Origin: Brevinematales bacterium
Lineage (GTDB): Bacteria; Spirochaetota; Brevinematia; Brevinematales; Thermospiraceae
Direction of reading: 5' to 3'
NCBI GenBank assembly: GCA_026417555.1
Contig: JAOADA010000001.1
Coordinates: 84,195 to 148,194 of the forward strand
DNA length: 64,000 bases
Position 1 is the first letter of the stretch. Each line of letters begins with the position of its first letter. Position numbers and translations under genes: made by a program. The notes beneath the pieces are model-generated. The model worked only from the letters and a program-made list of their open reading frames with translations, made no database searches and was not told the DNA's origin. Of the stretch, positions 23,613 through 30,986 are shown piece after piece.

Positions 23613-23639
23613 ATAGTGACATAAAAATAGGACAGGGAG

Positions 23640-25046
23640 ATGGAACAAAGCGAACTTCAACGGGTGAGTGAGTTTGAACGTGTTCTGCCTCGCAGGGATT
23701 CTTCTCGTGCGGCCATTCGTTTTTTGGTAACTCATCAGCATCTCTCAAAGTTGCATCCGGAACTTTTTGGGCAAATAGAGAGAGTGGCCTCTCTTCCGGG
23801 GGTAAGGGATGCCGTGGTTGTTTTTCCGCATGCTGTTCCTTCCCATGGGGTTCCTTCTGGGTGTGTGTTTGCTGTCGGGGTCCATGATGGAGTGATGATT
23901 CCTTCGGCTATTCATTGGGACATCAATCTTGGTATTCGTACCTTGACTACCAATCTTATTCTTCCCGATGTGGAAAAGAAACTTCCCCTTATTCTCAAGG
24001 ATATTCAACGGTTGTTGCCTGTGGGACAGAAAGCCACAGGAAAAATGGTGCTTTCAAGAAAGGATTTGTTAGAGGTATTTAGCCAAGGGGCTCGTTGGAT
24101 CCAGGAAAAAAAATCTTCTGAGTTTGTAGACGAGCTTGAGTATATTGAGGATTATGGAGATTTGCCTGTTTCTAATCTCTCGAGTGTGCCGGAGTTTCTT
24201 CTGGAAGAAGAACATCGACAATTTGGGACTCTCAGGCATTTCTTGGAGATTCAGATTGTCAGTGAGATTTTTGATGTAGAAAAGGCCCGTATCTATGGGC
24301 TTTTCAAAAATCAGATTCTCATTACTTATCGGGCTGGGTCGGCTTCTTTAGGACGAGCGGTATGGTGGTATTATTATAGGCTCTTTCGAGAAAAGATGGA
24401 ACGTTATCACCTCACCCCTCCTCATCCCTCTCTTGTATATTTGCCTGTGGAGACAAGTGAATCCGAGGCTTTTTATCAGGCTGTTCAATGTGTTTCCAAC
24501 TATGCTCTTGCGAATAGACAGTTTATGGCCAGCCAGGTATACCACGTGCTCAATACCCTTCTCAAGGATGTAGAGGCCAATACCATGTATGACAGTGCCA
24601 CGAATACGGTCCGTTTGGAGACGCATTCGCTTGGATCTCTCCCAGAGAAGGTCTATGTCTACCGGAAGGGAAGTGTACGGACACAAATCCAGAGTGAGAG
24701 GGATCTTTCTCGTTCTTATCAGGTGGTAGGGAATCCTACCATGGTATGGGGTGGGATAGGGCAACCCTCATATATCATTTCAGGAAGAGATTCTTTGCTT
24801 GAGAAGAGTTTTGGCTCTTTTGAGATTTTACAGCCTGCTATTCCTCCTCATCTTTTTCCTGACGCAGAATGGACCAAGATTTTGAAAGGACAGGATTTGG
24901 TGGTACGTGCTCAGGGGGAACGCTTAGATTGGCGTCTTTATGCCAAAAACTATGAAACACCAAGGTCGGCGGTGGATTTCTGGATCCGGAGTGGATGGGG
25001 GAGTCGGATTGCTATGGTGAAACCGGTGGGAATTCTTTTGTCATGA
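23640..25046 (+). CDS. RtcB-like protein lacking catalytic residues (probable pseudoenzyme)
   Basis: RtcB is a Mn/GTP-dependent RNA ligase that joins 2',3'-cyclic phosphate and 5'-OH ends. This 468-residue protein matches the family from end to end: VASLPGV, WDINLGIRTLTTNL, RHFLEIQIV, ANRQFM, VYRKG and KPVGI near the terminus. Compared with archaeal RtcB from memory, key residues are changed. The metal Cys of DINCG is L97. The Asn before the first metal His is R199. The second metal His is R231, and the third is T321 in YDSATN. The guanylylated His is I396, and the C-terminal GMP-contact Lys is absent. D94 and H200 remain. There are no frameshifts and codon use looks normal, so selection seems to keep a non-ligase role, perhaps RNA-end binding. 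It leads the run with phoH and pgpH. Confidence 0.85.
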   Translation: MEQSELQRVSEFERVLPRRDSSRAAIRFLVTHQHLSKLHPELFGQIERVASLPGVRDAVVVFPHAVPSHGVPSGCVFAVGVHDGVMIPSAIHWDINLGIRTLTTNLILPDVEKKLPLILKDIQRLLPVGQKATGKMVLSRKDLLEVFSQGARWIQEKKSSEFVDELEYIEDYGDLPVSNLSSVPEFLLEEEHRQFGTLRHFLEIQIVSEIFDVEKARIYGLFKNQILITYRAGSASLGRAVWWYYYRLFREKMERYHLTPPHPSLVYLPVETSESEAFYQAVQCVSNYALANRQFMASQVYHVLNTLLKDVEANTMYDSATNTVRLETHSLGSLPEKVYVYRKGSVRTQIQSERDLSRSYQVVGNPTMVWGGIGQPSYIISGRDSLLEKSFGSFEILQPAIPPHLFPDAEWTKILKGQDLVVRAQGERLDWRLYAKNYETPRSAVDFWIRSGWGSRIAMVKPVGILLS

Positions 25047-25064: not shown

Positions 25065-26009
25065 ATGCGATGTGAGTTTCCCGTTCCGGGAGACGTTCAT
25101 CCTGTATTAGCGTTGGGGGTTCATGATTCTAATCTCAGATTGATGGAGAGGCTTCTTGAGGTACGGATTCGTCCTGGTGAGGATGTGTTGGTTATTGAAG
25201 GGACGGAGGAGAACTGTACGCGAGCCACGCATGTTCTCAAGGAAGTTTTTCAATTGGCGCGTGGGAATACCCCTGTCTCTCATGGAGAGATAACGTTTCT
25301 TGTGGAACAGGAGGGGAAGATTGCCCATTCTGCCTCAAAACTTCTTGTAGAGGGACTCACTATTACCAAACGCTCTCGAAAGATTAAGCCAAGAACGCCT
25401 CATCAGGCACAATACATTGAGGCTATCCATCATGATGATCTTGTCTTTGGTGTTGGCCCAGCAGGGACAGGAAAGACCTATCTTGCTATGGCTACGGGAC
25501 TTTTTTATCTTTTTTCTGGCAAGGTGAAGCGGCTTATTCTGACACGACCTGTGGTAGAGGCAGGGGAGAATCTAGGATTTTTGCCAGGTACCTTTGAAGA
25601 AAAGCTTCATCCCTATCTTCGTCCCCTTTTTGATGCCTTGGAGGACATTCTTTCTCCGGAGGAGGCTGAGAGGCTTCTTTTGTCTCATCAAGTAGAGATC
25701 GCTCCTCTGGCCTATATGCGGGGTCGTACACTTTCGAATGCTTTTGCCATTCTGGATGAGGCCCAAAATGCTACAAAAATGCAGATGAAAATGTTTCTTA
25801 CTCGTTTGGGAGAGGGAACCAAGATGGTGGTGACAGGGGATGTAACGCAGATAGATCTTCCTTCGGCTCAGGACTCTGGGCTTGTCGAGGCACTTCATCT
25901 TTTAACCAAGGTTCCAGGGGTGAGTATCCAGTATTTTGATGAAGAAGATATAGTTCGTCATCCCTTGGTGGCTCGTATTCTTGCTCGGTATGAAATGAGG
26001 AAGTCATGA
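25065..26009 (+). CDS. phoH: PhoH-family ATPase
   Basis: PhoH proteins are cytoplasmic ATPases with a helicase-like P-loop and a suspected role in RNA metabolism. The 314-residue protein has an N-terminal KH-like part (about residues 25-90). The ATPase domain contains the Walker A GPAGTGKT at about 131-138, LTRPVVEAGE, the Walker B ILDEAQN and the sensor-type VVTGDVTQIDLP. It starts 18 nt after the RtcB-like gene, and its stop overlaps pgpH (ATGA). The common order phoH-pgpH-ybeY is nearly retained, with ybeY now convergent downstream. Confidence 0.93.
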   Translation: MRCEFPVPGDVHPVLALGVHDSNLRLMERLLEVRIRPGEDVLVIEGTEENCTRATHVLKEVFQLARGNTPVSHGEITFLVEQEGKIAHSASKLLVEGLTITKRSRKIKPRTPHQAQYIEAIHHDDLVFGVGPAGTGKTYLAMATGLFYLFSGKVKRLILTRPVVEAGENLGFLPGTFEEKLHPYLRPLFDALEDILSPEEAERLLLSHQVEIAPLAYMRGRTLSNAFAILDEAQNATKMQMKMFLTRLGEGTKMVVTGDVTQIDLPSAQDSGLVEALHLLTKVPGVSIQYFDEEDIVRHPLVARILARYEMRKS

Positions 26010-28165
26010 GATTTGATGAACCTTTGCCTATTCGTATCATGATGGGGTTGCTGATTGGGGCTTTTGGAGTGAGTGCTCTCTTTTTGACGTTGGCGTATTG
26101 GCCATCGTCTTTTCGAGAGTATCAGATAGGACTTGCGTCTCCTCGCCAGGTGGTTTCTTGGTATACCTTTGCCTATGAGAATCAACAAGCAGCTTCTCAC
26201 GTGAAGAAGGAGATAGAGAAGAGTACTCCCTTTTATTATCGTGTAGTGCCAGGAAGTGAAGAAGAAAACAAACGTTTGGTTCAGGAGTGGTTGTCTGCAG
26301 CCACTAACAAAGAGAAAAGGGTTTTTGAGGCCTTTCTTGAACAGAGGAATTATACCTATAGTGAAAGGGTGAGAGAATATATTTTGGAGAACAGGGCTCT
26401 TCTTGCTAAATACGAGAACCGCTTCTTGTTCGTGGTAGAGTTTTTACAGCAGAATTTTCTTCTTGTGAAGAAAATGGTACCTGATCGGATGGAAGAGGTG
26501 TACCTTCAAAAAGGAAAGGAGATTCAGAGGTTTCCCTATGATCAGCTGTTGCTTATTCCTATAGAAAAATCTCAGATGCTGAGCCTTATCCGGCGTCTTT
26601 TCGGAGAGAGAAATGGTATTTTCTACGAGGCACTTGCAGAGATCCTTATCTCTTTACTCCAGCCGACGGCTGATCTGGATGAGGAGGCACGAGAGAGAAT
26701 GATAGCCTCTCAAGTGGTGCAACGGGTTCCTAGGGAGGTGATTCGGAAGGGAGAGGTTATTGTGGGAAGGGGAGTGGTACTGACAGCAGGAGATATAGAA
26801 AAACTCCAGGCGTACCGAAAGTACAAAGAAAATCTATTGTGGACGCGTTTTCCTGTTGTTTTGGGTATGATGCTAGTGGTTTTTGTGCTTTTTATTTATA
26901 GGTACCATCGGTATCAAGAGATCCTCTGGAAAAAATCTTCTTTTTTCTTGCTTTCGTTGATATTCTATGTGTTGCATCATGCACTTCTTTGGTATAGTCA
27001 TGTGTCGTTTGGTTCTTTCTTTTTGCCGGTGTTTTTGCATATTCCTTTTGCTATTGTAACACTCACACTGCCGATTCTTTTTCAGCAGCAACCTGTGGCT
27101 TTTGTGCTTCTTATCAATTATAGTTTGTATGCTGTTTTTTATCCTCTTATAGACGTGGTGAGTTTTACGAATTTGTTGTCTTTGTCTCTTTTTGCGTTGT
27201 ATACGGCTTCGCAGAAGAGAAAAACTTTTCAAAAGCGGTATGATTTTTTTGTGATTGGTATGGAGATTTTCTTACTTCAGCTGTTGTTTTCGTTTTTTTA
27301 TGAGTGGTTTTATCAAATCCATCTCAGTCTTTCAGATTGGTTTGTTGTGGGTCTTTTTGCTCTTGGAAATAGTCTCATTTCGGCTTTGGTGGCTTTTGCT
27401 ATTCTTCCTTTCTTTGAGAATATGTTTGGTATCCCGACGTATTTTCGTCTGACAGAATTGTCGTCACCATCGACAAGTCCTCTTTTGCGTCTGCTTCAAG
27501 AGAATGCTCCCGGTACCTATCTTCACTCTCAGCGATTGGGTGAGATGTGTGAGGTGGCGGCAGCAGAGATAGGAGCCGATGCCCTTCTTGCTAAGGTAGG
27601 GGCGTATTATCATGATGTGGGAAAACTTCAAACGCCAGAATTTTTTATTGAAAACCAGTCGGGAGATAATCCCCATGATGATATCAAACCTGGTCTTTCA
27701 ATTTCTGTGATCAAGCAGCATATAAAGTATGGAGTAGAACTTGCTCGTAAGTATCGTCTTCCCGAGGAGATAGTGGCTTTTATTGAGGAGCACCATGGGA
27801 CGACATCGATATCTTATTTCTACCATCAGGCCCTGAGGCTGTATGGAGAAGAAACCATTAATCCTGCAGATTATCAGTACCCTGGGCCGAAACCCCACTC
27901 TCTTGAGACAGCCATTTTGATGCTTGCTGATGGGGTTGAGGCAGCAACACGTGCCTATCAACAAAAGGGTGGGGAAACGAAGGTGACTATCCATGCTCTT
28001 GAAGATATTGTTGATGATATCATTGAACAGCGGCTTCAGTCTGGTCAGTTAGACGAGTGTCCCATTACCTTTGCTCAGGTGAGAAAGATTCGAGATGCCT
28101 TTGTGGAGTACCTTACAGCAGCTTTCCATAAACGGATGGACTACGCTCCAAGGAGAGAGGGATGA
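26006..28165 (+). CDS. pgpH: 7TM-HD (PgpH-type) cyclic-di-AMP phosphodiesterase-like membrane protein
   Basis: The 719-residue protein has one N-terminal membrane segment (about 10-32), a large extracytoplasmic 7TMR-HDED domain (about 33-280) and a bundle of about seven membrane segments (285-485). A cytoplasmic HDIG domain follows (about 500-690). The HD pair falls at about residues 535-536 in YYHDVGK, with further metal ligands in EEHHGT and LADGVEA. PgpH proteins hydrolyse c-di-AMP and so affect wall and potassium balance. Both borders are ATGA overlaps, with phoH and with the Bat-like gene. Confidence 0.9.
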   Translation: MRFDEPLPIRIMMGLLIGAFGVSALFLTLAYWPSSFREYQIGLASPRQVVSWYTFAYENQQAASHVKKEIEKSTPFYYRVVPGSEEENKRLVQEWLSAATNKEKRVFEAFLEQRNYTYSERVREYILENRALLAKYENRFLFVVEFLQQNFLLVKKMVPDRMEEVYLQKGKEIQRFPYDQLLLIPIEKSQMLSLIRRLFGERNGIFYEALAEILISLLQPTADLDEEARERMIASQVVQRVPREVIRKGEVIVGRGVVLTAGDIEKLQAYRKYKENLLWTRFPVVLGMMLVVFVLFIYRYHRYQEILWKKSSFFLLSLIFYVLHHALLWYSHVSFGSFFLPVFLHIPFAIVTLTLPILFQQQPVAFVLLINYSLYAVFYPLIDVVSFTNLLSLSLFALYTASQKRKTFQKRYDFFVIGMEIFLLQLLFSFFYEWFYQIHLSLSDWFVVGLFALGNSLISALVAFAILPFFENMFGIPTYFRLTELSSPSTSPLLRLLQENAPGTYLHSQRLGEMCEVAAAEIGADALLAKVGAYYHDVGKLQTPEFFIENQSGDNPHDDIKPGLSISVIKQHIKYGVELARKYRLPEEIVAFIEEHHGTTSISYFYHQALRLYGEETINPADYQYPGPKPHSLETAILMLADGVEAATRAYQQKGGETKVTIHALEDIVDDIIEQRLQSGQLDECPITFAQVRKIRDAFVEYLTAAFHKRMDYAPRREG

Positions 28166-28950
28166 TGTGGTGGGTATGGTTGCTTGTGCCTCTTTTTCCG
28201 ACGAATGAGATTCCCATGATGAAGACGATTGAGGTTGTGTATCCTGTGAGGGAAAGAGTGATTTCCTACCAGTTTCTTGGGGAGTTGTCACCTTTTCTGT
28301 CTGTTGAGTCAAAAACCAATGATCGTGGGGTGGTGATGACGCTCTCTCATGTCTCACTCTCGCCTCTCACCCTTCCCCCTCTTGAGGTGACAGTTCTCTC
28401 CAATGGGAGGACAAATCGGTTACTTTTTGAGGGATGGGTGTTGAGGGTAGCGCCTACCAATGTTATGGTTTCTAATCTTCATCCCGTAGCGGATATTTAT
28501 CCTATCTATGACTTGTGGTGGATAGGATGGTTGCTACTTGTATTGGTGATTGGGGGAGGGGTGGGGTGGTTTTTCTGGCATAAAAACAAGAAAAAAGAGG
28601 TTTTTCAGGAACCACCTCTCTCTGAGGATCTTGAGGGTTTTCTTGAGCGTCTCCGGAAAGAGGGAGAAACTATGGAAGAAAAAGCTTACTATTCTGAGGT
28701 GGCCTATTTTATCCGGTGTGTTCTTGAAAAAGCCTATGGGTTTCCTGCAAAGGAAATGGGGAGTCAAGAGATCAAAGCGATGCTTCCTGTGGACAAAGAG
28801 AGAAAAGAGAGTATTTTGGATGTCCTCAAGTGGTGTGATAGAGTAAAGTATGCCAAACATACGACATCCCCGGAGAAACGTCGAGAAATTCTGCAAGAGA
28901 GTGAAAAGATATATCAGGATCTGTTTCATGAGAAGGAGGAGAAACCATGA
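28162..28950 (+). CDS. BatD-like single-span membrane protein
   Basis: The 262-residue product has a short N-terminal hydrophobic stretch and an extracytoplasmic beta-rich domain (about 20-110). One membrane segment lies near residues 118-138, followed by a basic KNKKKE stop-transfer and a helical cytoplasmic tail (about 145-262). Architecture and position before a VWA gene fit a shortened BatD or DUF4381 protein, components of Bacteroides-aerotolerance (Bat) operons. The moxR ATPase gene usual in such operons is not in this run. It overlaps pgpH and the VWA gene by ATGA junctions. Confidence 0.6.
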   Translation: MMWWVWLLVPLFPTNEIPMMKTIEVVYPVRERVISYQFLGELSPFLSVESKTNDRGVVMTLSHVSLSPLTLPPLEVTVLSNGRTNRLLFEGWVLRVAPTNVMVSNLHPVADIYPIYDLWWIGWLLLVLVIGGGVGWFFWHKNKKKEVFQEPPLSEDLEGFLERLRKEGETMEEKAYYSEVAYFIRCVLEKAYGFPAKEMGSQEIKAMLPVDKERKESILDVLKWCDRVKYAKHTTSPEKRREILQESEKIYQDLFHEKEEKP

Positions 28951-30005
28951 GGTTTTTGCATCCGTGGTATTTTCTCTCTCTTGTGGTGATTCCGTTGTAC
29001 CTTTGGCTTCGGCATGGGCATCCCTTTTGGGGCAAGAGGGGGGAGGCTTCTCTAGCGGTGTCAGATATTCGGCTCTTTGGAAGGGAAAATTTCTTGAGTC
29101 GTTGGTACCACTGGATTATGGATGCTTTGGTGGTTATGGGGATTTTTTGGGGGATAGTGGCTCTGGCACGACCCATAGGAGGACAGATGCTCTCTCAGGA
29201 CAATCTGTATGGAGTAGATATTGTTCTGGTGATGGATGTTTCTGAGACGATGCTCTTTGTGGATGAGATTCCCTCTTTCCTTGTGAAGCGCCATCTCTAT
29301 GGGGAAATAGTGTATGAGGATCCTACCGGAAAAATGGGGGAATATACTCGTCTTGAGTCCGCCAAAAGGGTTATCAAATCCTATGTAGAAAAGCAGTCAC
29401 AAAATCGTATAGGGGTGGTTCTCTTTGGAACGTATGCCTATACCCTTACCCCTCTGACGTATGATAGGGATATGGTTCTTCGGCTTCTTGAGGGAATAAC
29501 CTTCAATCCGGCTAATAACCGGACAGCTATAGGGATGGGAGTGGCCACAGCCATCAATCGGTTTGCTTCTTCCAAGGCAAAGAGCAAGGTGATTATTCTT
29601 CTCACGGATGGAATGAATAATGCGGGTCTTGTGGACCCGAAAACAGCAACCAGCATGGCTCGAGAAAAAAATATCCGTATCTATACGATTGGTTTTGGGA
29701 ATCCTGACGCTGTTCTCCAGCCAGTGGATCGTGCGGGACGCTTCTATGTTCTCAAATCAGGGGAATCCATAGATGAAAAACTCTTGGCTTGGATGGCAGA
29801 AGAGACAGGTGGAAAATATTATCGAGCCCATGATAGGCAAACTTTGGCTACTATTTATGATGATATTGATAGACTTGAGAAATCCAAGATCACCATTCAG
29901 CGACGACTCTTTTGGAAGGAGAATTTTTGGCCCTTTGCTTTTCTTTCTTGGCTCTGTTTTATGGTATGGATAGGGATTCAGGTGGTGTGGGTCCGTCTTC
30001 CGTAG
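28947..30005 (+). CDS. BatA-like von Willebrand factor A membrane protein
   Basis: The 352-residue protein has N-terminal membrane segments (about 8-22 and 55-75), a VWA domain (about 90-310) and a C-terminal membrane segment (about 328-350). The metal-ion-dependent adhesion site is complete but uses Thr at its third position: D97, S99 and T101 in MDVSETM. TPLTYDRD and the LTDGMNNAG motif follow. Between the first two strands is a longer insert (about residues 106-135) than I expect in BatA. Its 3' end overlaps convergent ybeY by 47 nt. Confidence 0.85.
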   Translation: MRFLHPWYFLSLVVIPLYLWLRHGHPFWGKRGEASLAVSDIRLFGRENFLSRWYHWIMDALVVMGIFWGIVALARPIGGQMLSQDNLYGVDIVLVMDVSETMLFVDEIPSFLVKRHLYGEIVYEDPTGKMGEYTRLESAKRVIKSYVEKQSQNRIGVVLFGTYAYTLTPLTYDRDMVLRLLEGITFNPANNRTAIGMGVATAINRFASSKAKSKVIILLTDGMNNAGLVDPKTATSMAREKNIRIYTIGFGNPDAVLQPVDRAGRFYVLKSGESIDEKLLAWMAEETGGKYYRAHDRQTLATIYDDIDRLEKSKITIQRRLFWKENFWPFAFLSWLCFMVWIGIQVVWVRLP

Positions 30006-30495
30006 CGTATTCAGGATAACGGGTGAGAAACCATTGAAGGTATTCGTCTTGTTTGGCAAACATCTCTTTTTCTTCGTGTTCGTCCTTTTCATGGTCGTAA
30101 CCCAACAGGTGAAGGGCTCCATGGATAGCGAGCCTTGCTATTTCCCCTTCCCATGAGAGGTCGTTTTCTTTTGCTTGGGCTTTTGCTTTTTCTGTGGAAA
30201 GAACAATATCCCCAAGCATCTGGTAGATATCCCCATCTTCATCTTCTCTGACTGTTTGGGAAAAGTCCTCTAAAGGTTCGCCTTCTTGGAGAGAAAAAGA
30301 GAGAACATCAGTAGCATAATCCTTGCCTCGATAGAGAGCATTGAGCTCTTGAATAGTAGGATTGTCGCAGAGAAGAAGCGAAACGCCGTAGTGAGCGGCC
30401 TGGTGTTCCGCAAGAATTTTTCTCAAAAGTTGGCTCAACCTGTCGAGAAAGAGAGGATTGTCAAAGGCTTCTTGTTCGTTTCGGATCTCTATCAT
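29959..30495 (-). CDS. ybeY: endoribonuclease YbeY / rRNA maturation factor
   Basis: YbeY is a zinc-dependent RNase involved in 16S rRNA 3'-end maturation and 70S quality control. The 178-residue protein has the HGALHLLGYDH signature with zinc ligands H125, H129 and H135, plus YATDVLSF and GDIVLS. AGGTGG lies just before the ATG at 30495; the in-frame GTG at 30504 has no such site. It starts 2 nt after the YfcE-like gene. Its last 47 nt overlap the end of the BatA-like gene on the other strand. Confidence 0.94.
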   Translation of the reverse strand: MIEIRNEQEAFDNPLFLDRLSQLLRKILAEHQAAHYGVSLLLCDNPTIQELNALYRGKDYATDVLSFSLQEGEPLEDFSQTVREDEDGDIYQMLGDIVLSTEKAKAQAKENDLSWEGEIARLAIHGALHLLGYDHEKDEHEEKEMFAKQDEYLQWFLTRYPEYATEDGPTPPESLSIP

Positions 30496-30497
30496 AT

Positions 30498-30986
30498 TTA
30501 CCACCTATCGGGGAGAAAAAGAAGTCGATGCTCTGTGATTTTGCCGCTGTCCAGCGTTACCATTCCGTAGTGACCATTCTGGAGAGCGCCTGGGTTGAAA
30601 TAGAAGATGTTCTCTTCTTCAAAAGATGCTTGTTCATGGGTATGTCCAAAAAGGACAAGATTTACCCCAAGGTGGAGGGCATGTTTTTTGAGAAACACGA
30701 GGGTAGAATGGACACTGTATCTATGACCATGGGTTGCAAGGAGTTTTACGCCATCGTATTCGGTGATGCGTTCCCAGTCAACGACGATGTTCATTTCTGG
30801 ATAGACGGTCTCCATATTTCCCTTGACAAGCACCAGAGGAAACCCATCATCCAAAAAGGACAACATATCATAGCTTTTGTCACCAAGGTGAAAAAGCACA
30901 TCAAATTCCTCACGATGTTTGCGAATAAGATCATAAATGCGATCCACTTTCCCATGAGAATCGCTGATCACCAACAAGCGGGTCAC
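30498..30986 (-). CDS. YfcE/MJ0936-type metallophosphodiesterase
   Basis: The 162-residue protein is a calcineurin-like phosphoesterase of the small YfcE type. It has all five metal-binding blocks: ISDSHG, HLGDKSYD, KGNME, ATHGH and FGHTHEQ. Such enzymes hydrolyse phosphodiesters in vitro; the physiological substrate is generally unknown. The start is a GTG at 30986, preceded by GGGAGG 4 nt upstream; the ATG overlapping it is out of frame. It lies 27 nt after the SAP/DUF4912 gene and 2 nt before ybeY, so the three form an operon. Confidence 0.9.
   Translation of the reverse strand: MTRLLVISDSHGKVDRIYDLIRKHREEFDVLFHLGDKSYDMLSFLDDGFPLVLVKGNMETVYPEMNIVVDWERITEYDGVKLLATHGHRYSVHSTLVFLKKHALHLGVNLVLFGHTHEQASFEEENIFYFNPGALQNGHYGMVTLDSGKITEHRLLFLPDRW

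Follow-up and report, generated by a model that had tools for sequence, protein, structure and literature searches.

The activities known for RtcB are ligation and capping, while PhoH is a conserved ATPase of largely obscure function. A search of the full text of 5.39 million open-licence papers for RtcB together with "pseudoenzyme" returned no match, and RtcB pseudoenzymes seem to be undescribed so far. In the long-type RtcB of Pyrococcus horikoshii (PhRtcB), two Mn2+ ions are held by C98/H234/H329 and by D95/C98/H203, and H404 carries GMP (PMC10630183). Alanine mutants of D65, D95, N202, H203, F204, E206, H404 and K480 are inactive, and archease rescues only F204A, E206A and K480A among them (PMC3973293). 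Related RtcBs with mutated Cys or His ligands are likewise ligase-dead (PMC10630183). Some cells distribute functions over several RtcB paralogues, as with RtcB2-PrfH of E. coli and RtcB1-6 of Myxococcus; unlike the protein described here, which is devoid of catalytic residues, the characterised ones are active (in part from PMC9223846). A closer parallel in kind comes from prozyme-type pseudoenzymes, such as the AdoMetDC prozyme of Trypanosoma brucei, in which selection maintains a dead homologue alongside its live counterpart. However, the prozyme has an unrelated fold and its regulatory action has been demonstrated, whereas the present RtcB is known from sequence.

The window, that is, the whole 64,000-nucleotide stretch of a Brevinematales spirochaete analysed here, contains an rtcB frame that starts with ATG, is free of stops and encodes 468 residues (Table 1). 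The protein belongs to the RtcB family by both profile and full-length fold. PF01139 matches it with 233 bits (E 8.3e-69, cut-off 27) over positions 1–346 of the 426 in the profile, while the C-terminal part can be aligned only with close relatives; PhRtcB (1uc2) matches the sequence at E 3.6e-52. An AlphaFold model built from 23 related sequences (mean pLDDT 89.4, pTM 0.91) superimposes on GMP-bound PhRtcB (4dwq) with a TM score of 0.93 over 478 columns. The intact, RtcB-collinear frame of the original prediction is thus borne out. Like P. horikoshii PH1602 and Thermus thermophilus TTHA1785, the protein combines this fold and collinearity with equivalents of D95, H203, F204, E206 and K351; unlike them, it is altered at D65, C98, N202, H234, H329, H404 and K480 together, lacks two active-site loops and resides in a genome without archease.

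The residue changes, read from two alignments and numbered for the reference after PhRtcB, dismantle each part of the catalytic center. In the two-Mn2+ site (D95, C98, H203, H234, H329), the cysteine has become leucine, H234 arginine and H329 threonine in all three species of the genus, namely the window genome (G000) and its congeners G001 and G002. Two small in-frame deletions remove the GSG of GSGNH (3 residues) and the HGAGR loop (5 residues) in which H404 is guanylylated. Among the contacts to the GTP triphosphate and guanine (N202, F204, E206, K480), N202 is replaced by arginine and K480 by leucine, with F204 and E206 kept. Further losses comprise R238 (now alanine), H349 (now tyrosine), R408 and R412. 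More broadly, 87 columns are invariant in 17 aligned intact long RtcBs, and 39 of these, deleted loops counted, are lost in all three species while 43 are kept. Both alignments agree with the original prediction in placing L97, R199, R231, T321 and L467 at C98, N202, H234, H329 and K480, and in the retention of D94 (D95) and H200 (H203). Its statement that nothing else remains is slightly too strong, since F201 (F204), E203 (E206) and K343 (K351) persist as well. Its assignment of the guanylylated histidine to I396 is correct in that H404 is lost; however, I396 is only the counterpart in an ungapped register, itself devoid of histidine, and in the alignments the loop is deleted.

Table 1. Features of the rtcB locus, with positions in the window
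Feature	Position	Strand	Basis
Promoter-like site, TTTACT – 17 nt – TACAAT, -10 ending 27 nt before the start codon	23584..23612	+	Consensus match, alone not significant; conserved in G000, G001, G002
Purine-rich ribosome-binding site aggacagggag before the ATG	23629..23639	+	Conserved in 3 species
RtcB pseudoenzyme, 468 aa, long (Pyrococcus-like) type	23640..25046	+	Profile, alignments, AlphaFold model
H64 replacing PhRtcB D65	23829..23831	+	Alignments; D65A ligase-dead, archease rescue absent (PMC3973293)
L97 replacing metal ligand C98	23928..23930	+	Alignments; ligand role PMC10630183
L198-R199: GSG deleted, N202 replaced by Arg, followed by H200 (H203)	24231..24236	+	Alignment columns 203–206
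R231 replacing metal ligand H234	24330..24332	+	Alignments
T321 replacing metal ligand H329	24600..24602	+	Alignments
F394-E395: 5-residue deletion of the HGAG loop including guanylylated H404	24819..24824	+	Alignment columns 411–415
L467 replacing guanine-contacting K480	25038..25040	+	Alignments; PMC3973293
phoH (PhoH-like ATPase), 18 nt downstream of rtcB	25065..26009	+	PF02562, E 2.2e-87
pgpH-type 7TM-HD phosphodiesterase	26006..28165	+	PF07697, PF07698, PF01966
Predicted membrane protein preceding BatA	28162..28950	+	Sub-threshold Pfam match only; orthologues before BatA in G001, G002, G003, G004, G007
BatA-like VWA membrane protein	28947..30005	+	PF00092, E 8e-18
ybeY, convergent to the operon and outside it	29959..30504	-	PF02130, E 1.6e-36

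Conceivably, cysteine or histidine ligands could have been re-established elsewhere in the protein. Those common to all three species are H39, H64, H69, H200, H262, C284, H302 and H329 (window-protein numbering), and the region of the lost H404 offers no conserved substitute among them; a histidine in a C-terminal PPH is dismissed because the motif reads PPS in G001. Nor are the replaced columns more conserved among the three than the rest (26 of 34 vs. 309 of 434 remaining columns, p 0.69), so that the new pocket residues give no sign of forming a special site. Published single mutants are ligase-dead at five of the lost positions (D65, C98, N202, H234 and H404). Judged by analogy with these, the simultaneous loss of seven sites in a genome without archease makes it very unlikely that the protein ligates RNA by the known mechanism, and catalysis by known chemistry is excluded to the extent that sequence allows.

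The frame has nevertheless been kept by selection. Within the genus (n = 3), the orthologues in G002 (89–90% identical) and G001 (75%) have the same 468-codon length, lie beside phoH and carry the same substitutions and deletions. NG86 dN/dS of rtcB is 0.065 for G000–G002 and 0.08 for G000–G001, the latter with synonymous sites near saturation; phoH gives similar values (0.042 and 0.080), and the membrane protein preceding BatA higher ones (0.13–0.23). Differences at codon positions 1/2/3 number 55/25/196 between G000 and G002, and 106/51/245 in the second pair. When neutral evolution was simulated to an equal third-position divergence, 500 of 500 runs produced at least seven stops, which, together with equal-length orthologues at 89% and 75% identity, excludes chance. 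The window RtcB is a pseudoenzyme whose catalytic residues are lost while purifying selection still acts on its protein sequence.

The transcriptional setting leads to a similar conclusion. The -35 and -10 elements, leader and ribosome-binding site are kept in all three species while the sequence farther upstream has diverged or been replaced, with other genes standing there in G001; the operon is thus under selection with rtcB as its promoter-proximal gene. The gap between rtcB and phoH measures 16–18 nt in all three, and the subsequent genes overlap, in agreement with the predicted rtcB-headed phoH-pgpH-Bat operon. Of the two neighbors that the original prediction assigns to RNA quality control, phoH adjoins rtcB, whereas ybeY lies on the opposite strand and is not an operon member. 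Moreover, the PhoH link is not a general context. Rather, rtcB-phoH occurs in one genus, and the phoH-pgpH-DUF-BatA operon is found without rtcB in G004 and G007. Because the link is genus-specific, a role in RNA quality control draws on one gene neighbor in one genus. The window itself yielded no Rfam matches and no tRNAs, and PADLOC no links for its RtcB.

A second, intact RtcB, sought on the advice of the original prediction, was found in all three species: a short, motif-complete protein of 382 residues (L120:6861-8006, minus strand, corresponding to about 645.4–646.5 kb of contig C11 in G000), encoded inside the trp operon between trpE-like and trpG/D-trpC-like genes. Archease (PF01951) gave no match in G000, G001 or G002, with controls and the f5 genomes positive. 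Two described arrangements were also looked for. The RtcA cyclase (PF01137) was detected in none of nine genomes, with an E. coli control positive, and an E. coli-type RtcAB/RtcR operon is accordingly lacking in these; for a PrfH-RtcB2 module, TIGR03073 reached 33 bits against a cut-off of 271.8, and prfH does not appear among the annotated neighbors.

Comparison across the class places these features in a graded series. The families are designated f1 (the window genus), f2 (the sister family, G003, G006 and G009), f3 (G004 and G007), f4, and f5 (five genomes in the class). A single, fully intact long RtcB is present in f3, within the order, and in f5, within the class, so that families with only a long RtcB keep the enzyme intact; f4 is without one. 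The short RtcB is confined within the class to f1 and f2, in both with complete motifs, and archease is absent from f1, f2 and f4 and present in f5 and G007. In f2, the orthologous long RtcB bears D65N, H234Q, G201E, K351S/C and K480R, with HGAGR changed to HNTGR or HCTGR, and retains C98, N202, H203, H329 and H404 under purifying selection (dN/dS 0.05–0.09). By analogy with the D65 and H234 mutants it is probably ligase-dead too. It resembles the window protein further in its short second RtcB and missing archease, but its losses are milder (D65, H234, K351, K480) and its neighbor is murF, not phoH (loci L008 in G009, L009 in G006 and L010 in G003). These two lineages make a link between degeneration of the long RtcB and the combination of archease loss with a short RtcB suggestive. 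Loss of archease is not by itself a predictor of decay, since no archease and no second RtcB were detected in the 99%-complete genome of G004, whose long RtcB (L036:9215-10642) is intact. In a wider survey, 157 of 393 spirochaete genomes have RtcB; evidently long-type matches outside f1 and f2 score at least 487 bits, compared with 392–398 bits in f2 (341 where the contig ends within the gene) and 216–233 in f1. The same changes recur beside phoH in both congeners; judged from scores and lengths, degeneration looks confined to f1 and f2 in this sample. The RtcBs of phages recovered by similarity searching are only remotely related (no more than 25% identity).

A single origin for the losses in f1 and f2 was considered and is disfavored. 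The RtcB tree does unite the two families (98/95), with long stems on both (1.94 changes per site for the f1 genus). However, PNPase rejects this grouping (AU p 0.002) and RpoB disfavors it (p 0.043), both trees separating f2 from f1 and grouping it with f4, and the RtcB data themselves do not reject f1 with f3 (p 0.078; f1 with G004 alone, p 0.030). Two independent losses are therefore favored, not proven, and in the f2 protein a further RtcB pseudoenzyme may have arisen independently. As to the locus, the phoH-pgpH-DUF-BatA operon is older than its association with rtcB, f2 also having phoH-pgpH. Since rtcB stands divergent to murF in G004 and f2, and murF of G000 has no adjacent rtcB, the gene moved to the head of the operon in the window genus only.

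Taken together, these observations are best explained, with a probability of about 0.72, by a selected, ligase-dead long RtcB with a binding role. Starting from an ancestral long RtcB of Brevinematales, the lineage would have lost archease and obtained the short RtcB, which would have taken over RNA ligation. Freed from this task, the long RtcB would have shed its Mn2+ and His-GMP machinery, the two active-site loops included, left its place next to murF for the first position in the older operon, and since then been maintained by purifying selection for a non-ligase role. That it works by binding is the part we infer, and such a role is the best supported because the fold is intact, arginines and a histidine occupy the former metal/GTP pocket, and the gene is co-expressed with phoH. 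In this pocket R199, R231 and H64 would lie next to the retained H200, K343 and R347, and together they could bind the phosphate of a nucleotide or an RNA with no need of a metal ion. As a DAC-domain synthase is encoded as well as PgpH, c-di-AMP is one candidate ligand. We favor an adaptor that binds RNA or another ligand, for which the co-transcribed PhoH ATPase would be the likeliest partner, itself possible rather than probable. More tentative by a shade is the full proposal of a non-catalytic, RNA- or nucleotide-responsive factor of RtcB fold, with arginines in place of the metal site, that feeds into PhoH, with two origins of the pseudoenzyme, each accompanied by the loss of archease and the acquisition of a second RtcB. 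The sensing or sequestering of broken RNA ends suggested originally is weakened. It is possible but not favored, because the end-processing pocket residues D65, R190, N202, R238 and H404 are all gone and the replaced columns are no more conserved than the rest.

Several other explanations deserve consideration. The dead long RtcB might, like a prozyme, tune ligation by binding either to the active short enzyme or to the RNAs on which that enzyme acts. Both lineages with a degenerate long RtcB indeed have a short intact one in the same genome, and dead paralogues that activate live ones exist elsewhere, as for T. brucei AdoMetDC and its prozyme (PMC5201418). However, the long and short proteins are distant subfamilies encoded at separate loci, the phoH and trp operons, which leaves such regulation unlikely. 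We know of no RtcB that needs a partner RtcB. A little less likely again is a rewired enzyme in which D94, H200 and the new H64 hold one metal ion for another reaction, for example phosphodiester hydrolysis. The identity of D94, H200, H64, E203 and K343 in all three species speaks for this reading, but Leu, Arg and Thr have taken the place of three of the five metal ligands, deletions have removed two catalytic loops, and H64 occupies the position of D65, a residue that does not coordinate metal in PhRtcB.

The long genus stem in the RtcB tree could instead betray a relic in decay, rendered useless by the arrival of the short RtcB and still awaiting deletion. This is very improbable and was rejected, given the low dN/dS, the equal length in three species 75–90% identical, the lack of stops where neutral simulations always give them, and the conserved promoter. 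Least credible is that an assembly error or a frameshift only simulates the lost residues, for which nothing speaks except that the window derives from a draft genome; this was rejected because two further assemblies, one of them a single 2.5-Mb contig, show the same substitutions and the same deletions.

If a selected, ligase-dead RtcB is the correct reading, the RtcB fold would have a second, binding-only use, and the window protein would provide a natural separation of the binding roles of RtcB from its chemistry. The series from intact (f3, f5) through partly lost (f2) to fully lost (window genus) would make the path testable, and the tie to PhoH would be a concrete lead on both proteins. 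Should f2 prove a parallel case, RtcB would have turned pseudoenzyme twice, each time with archease loss and a second RtcB.

A few features of the surrounding DNA may be recorded separately. A gene of metallo-beta-lactamase fold also lies next to the long rtcB in G003 and G006. The predicted membrane protein at 28162–28950, without a clear Pfam family, evolves fast, its congeners sharing 48–63% identity. Directly upstream of the rtcB-phoH operon of G001, where synteny with the window breaks, L035:10300-10860 holds at least 11 degenerate copies of a repeat of about 28 nt, mostly spaced by 30–38 nt.
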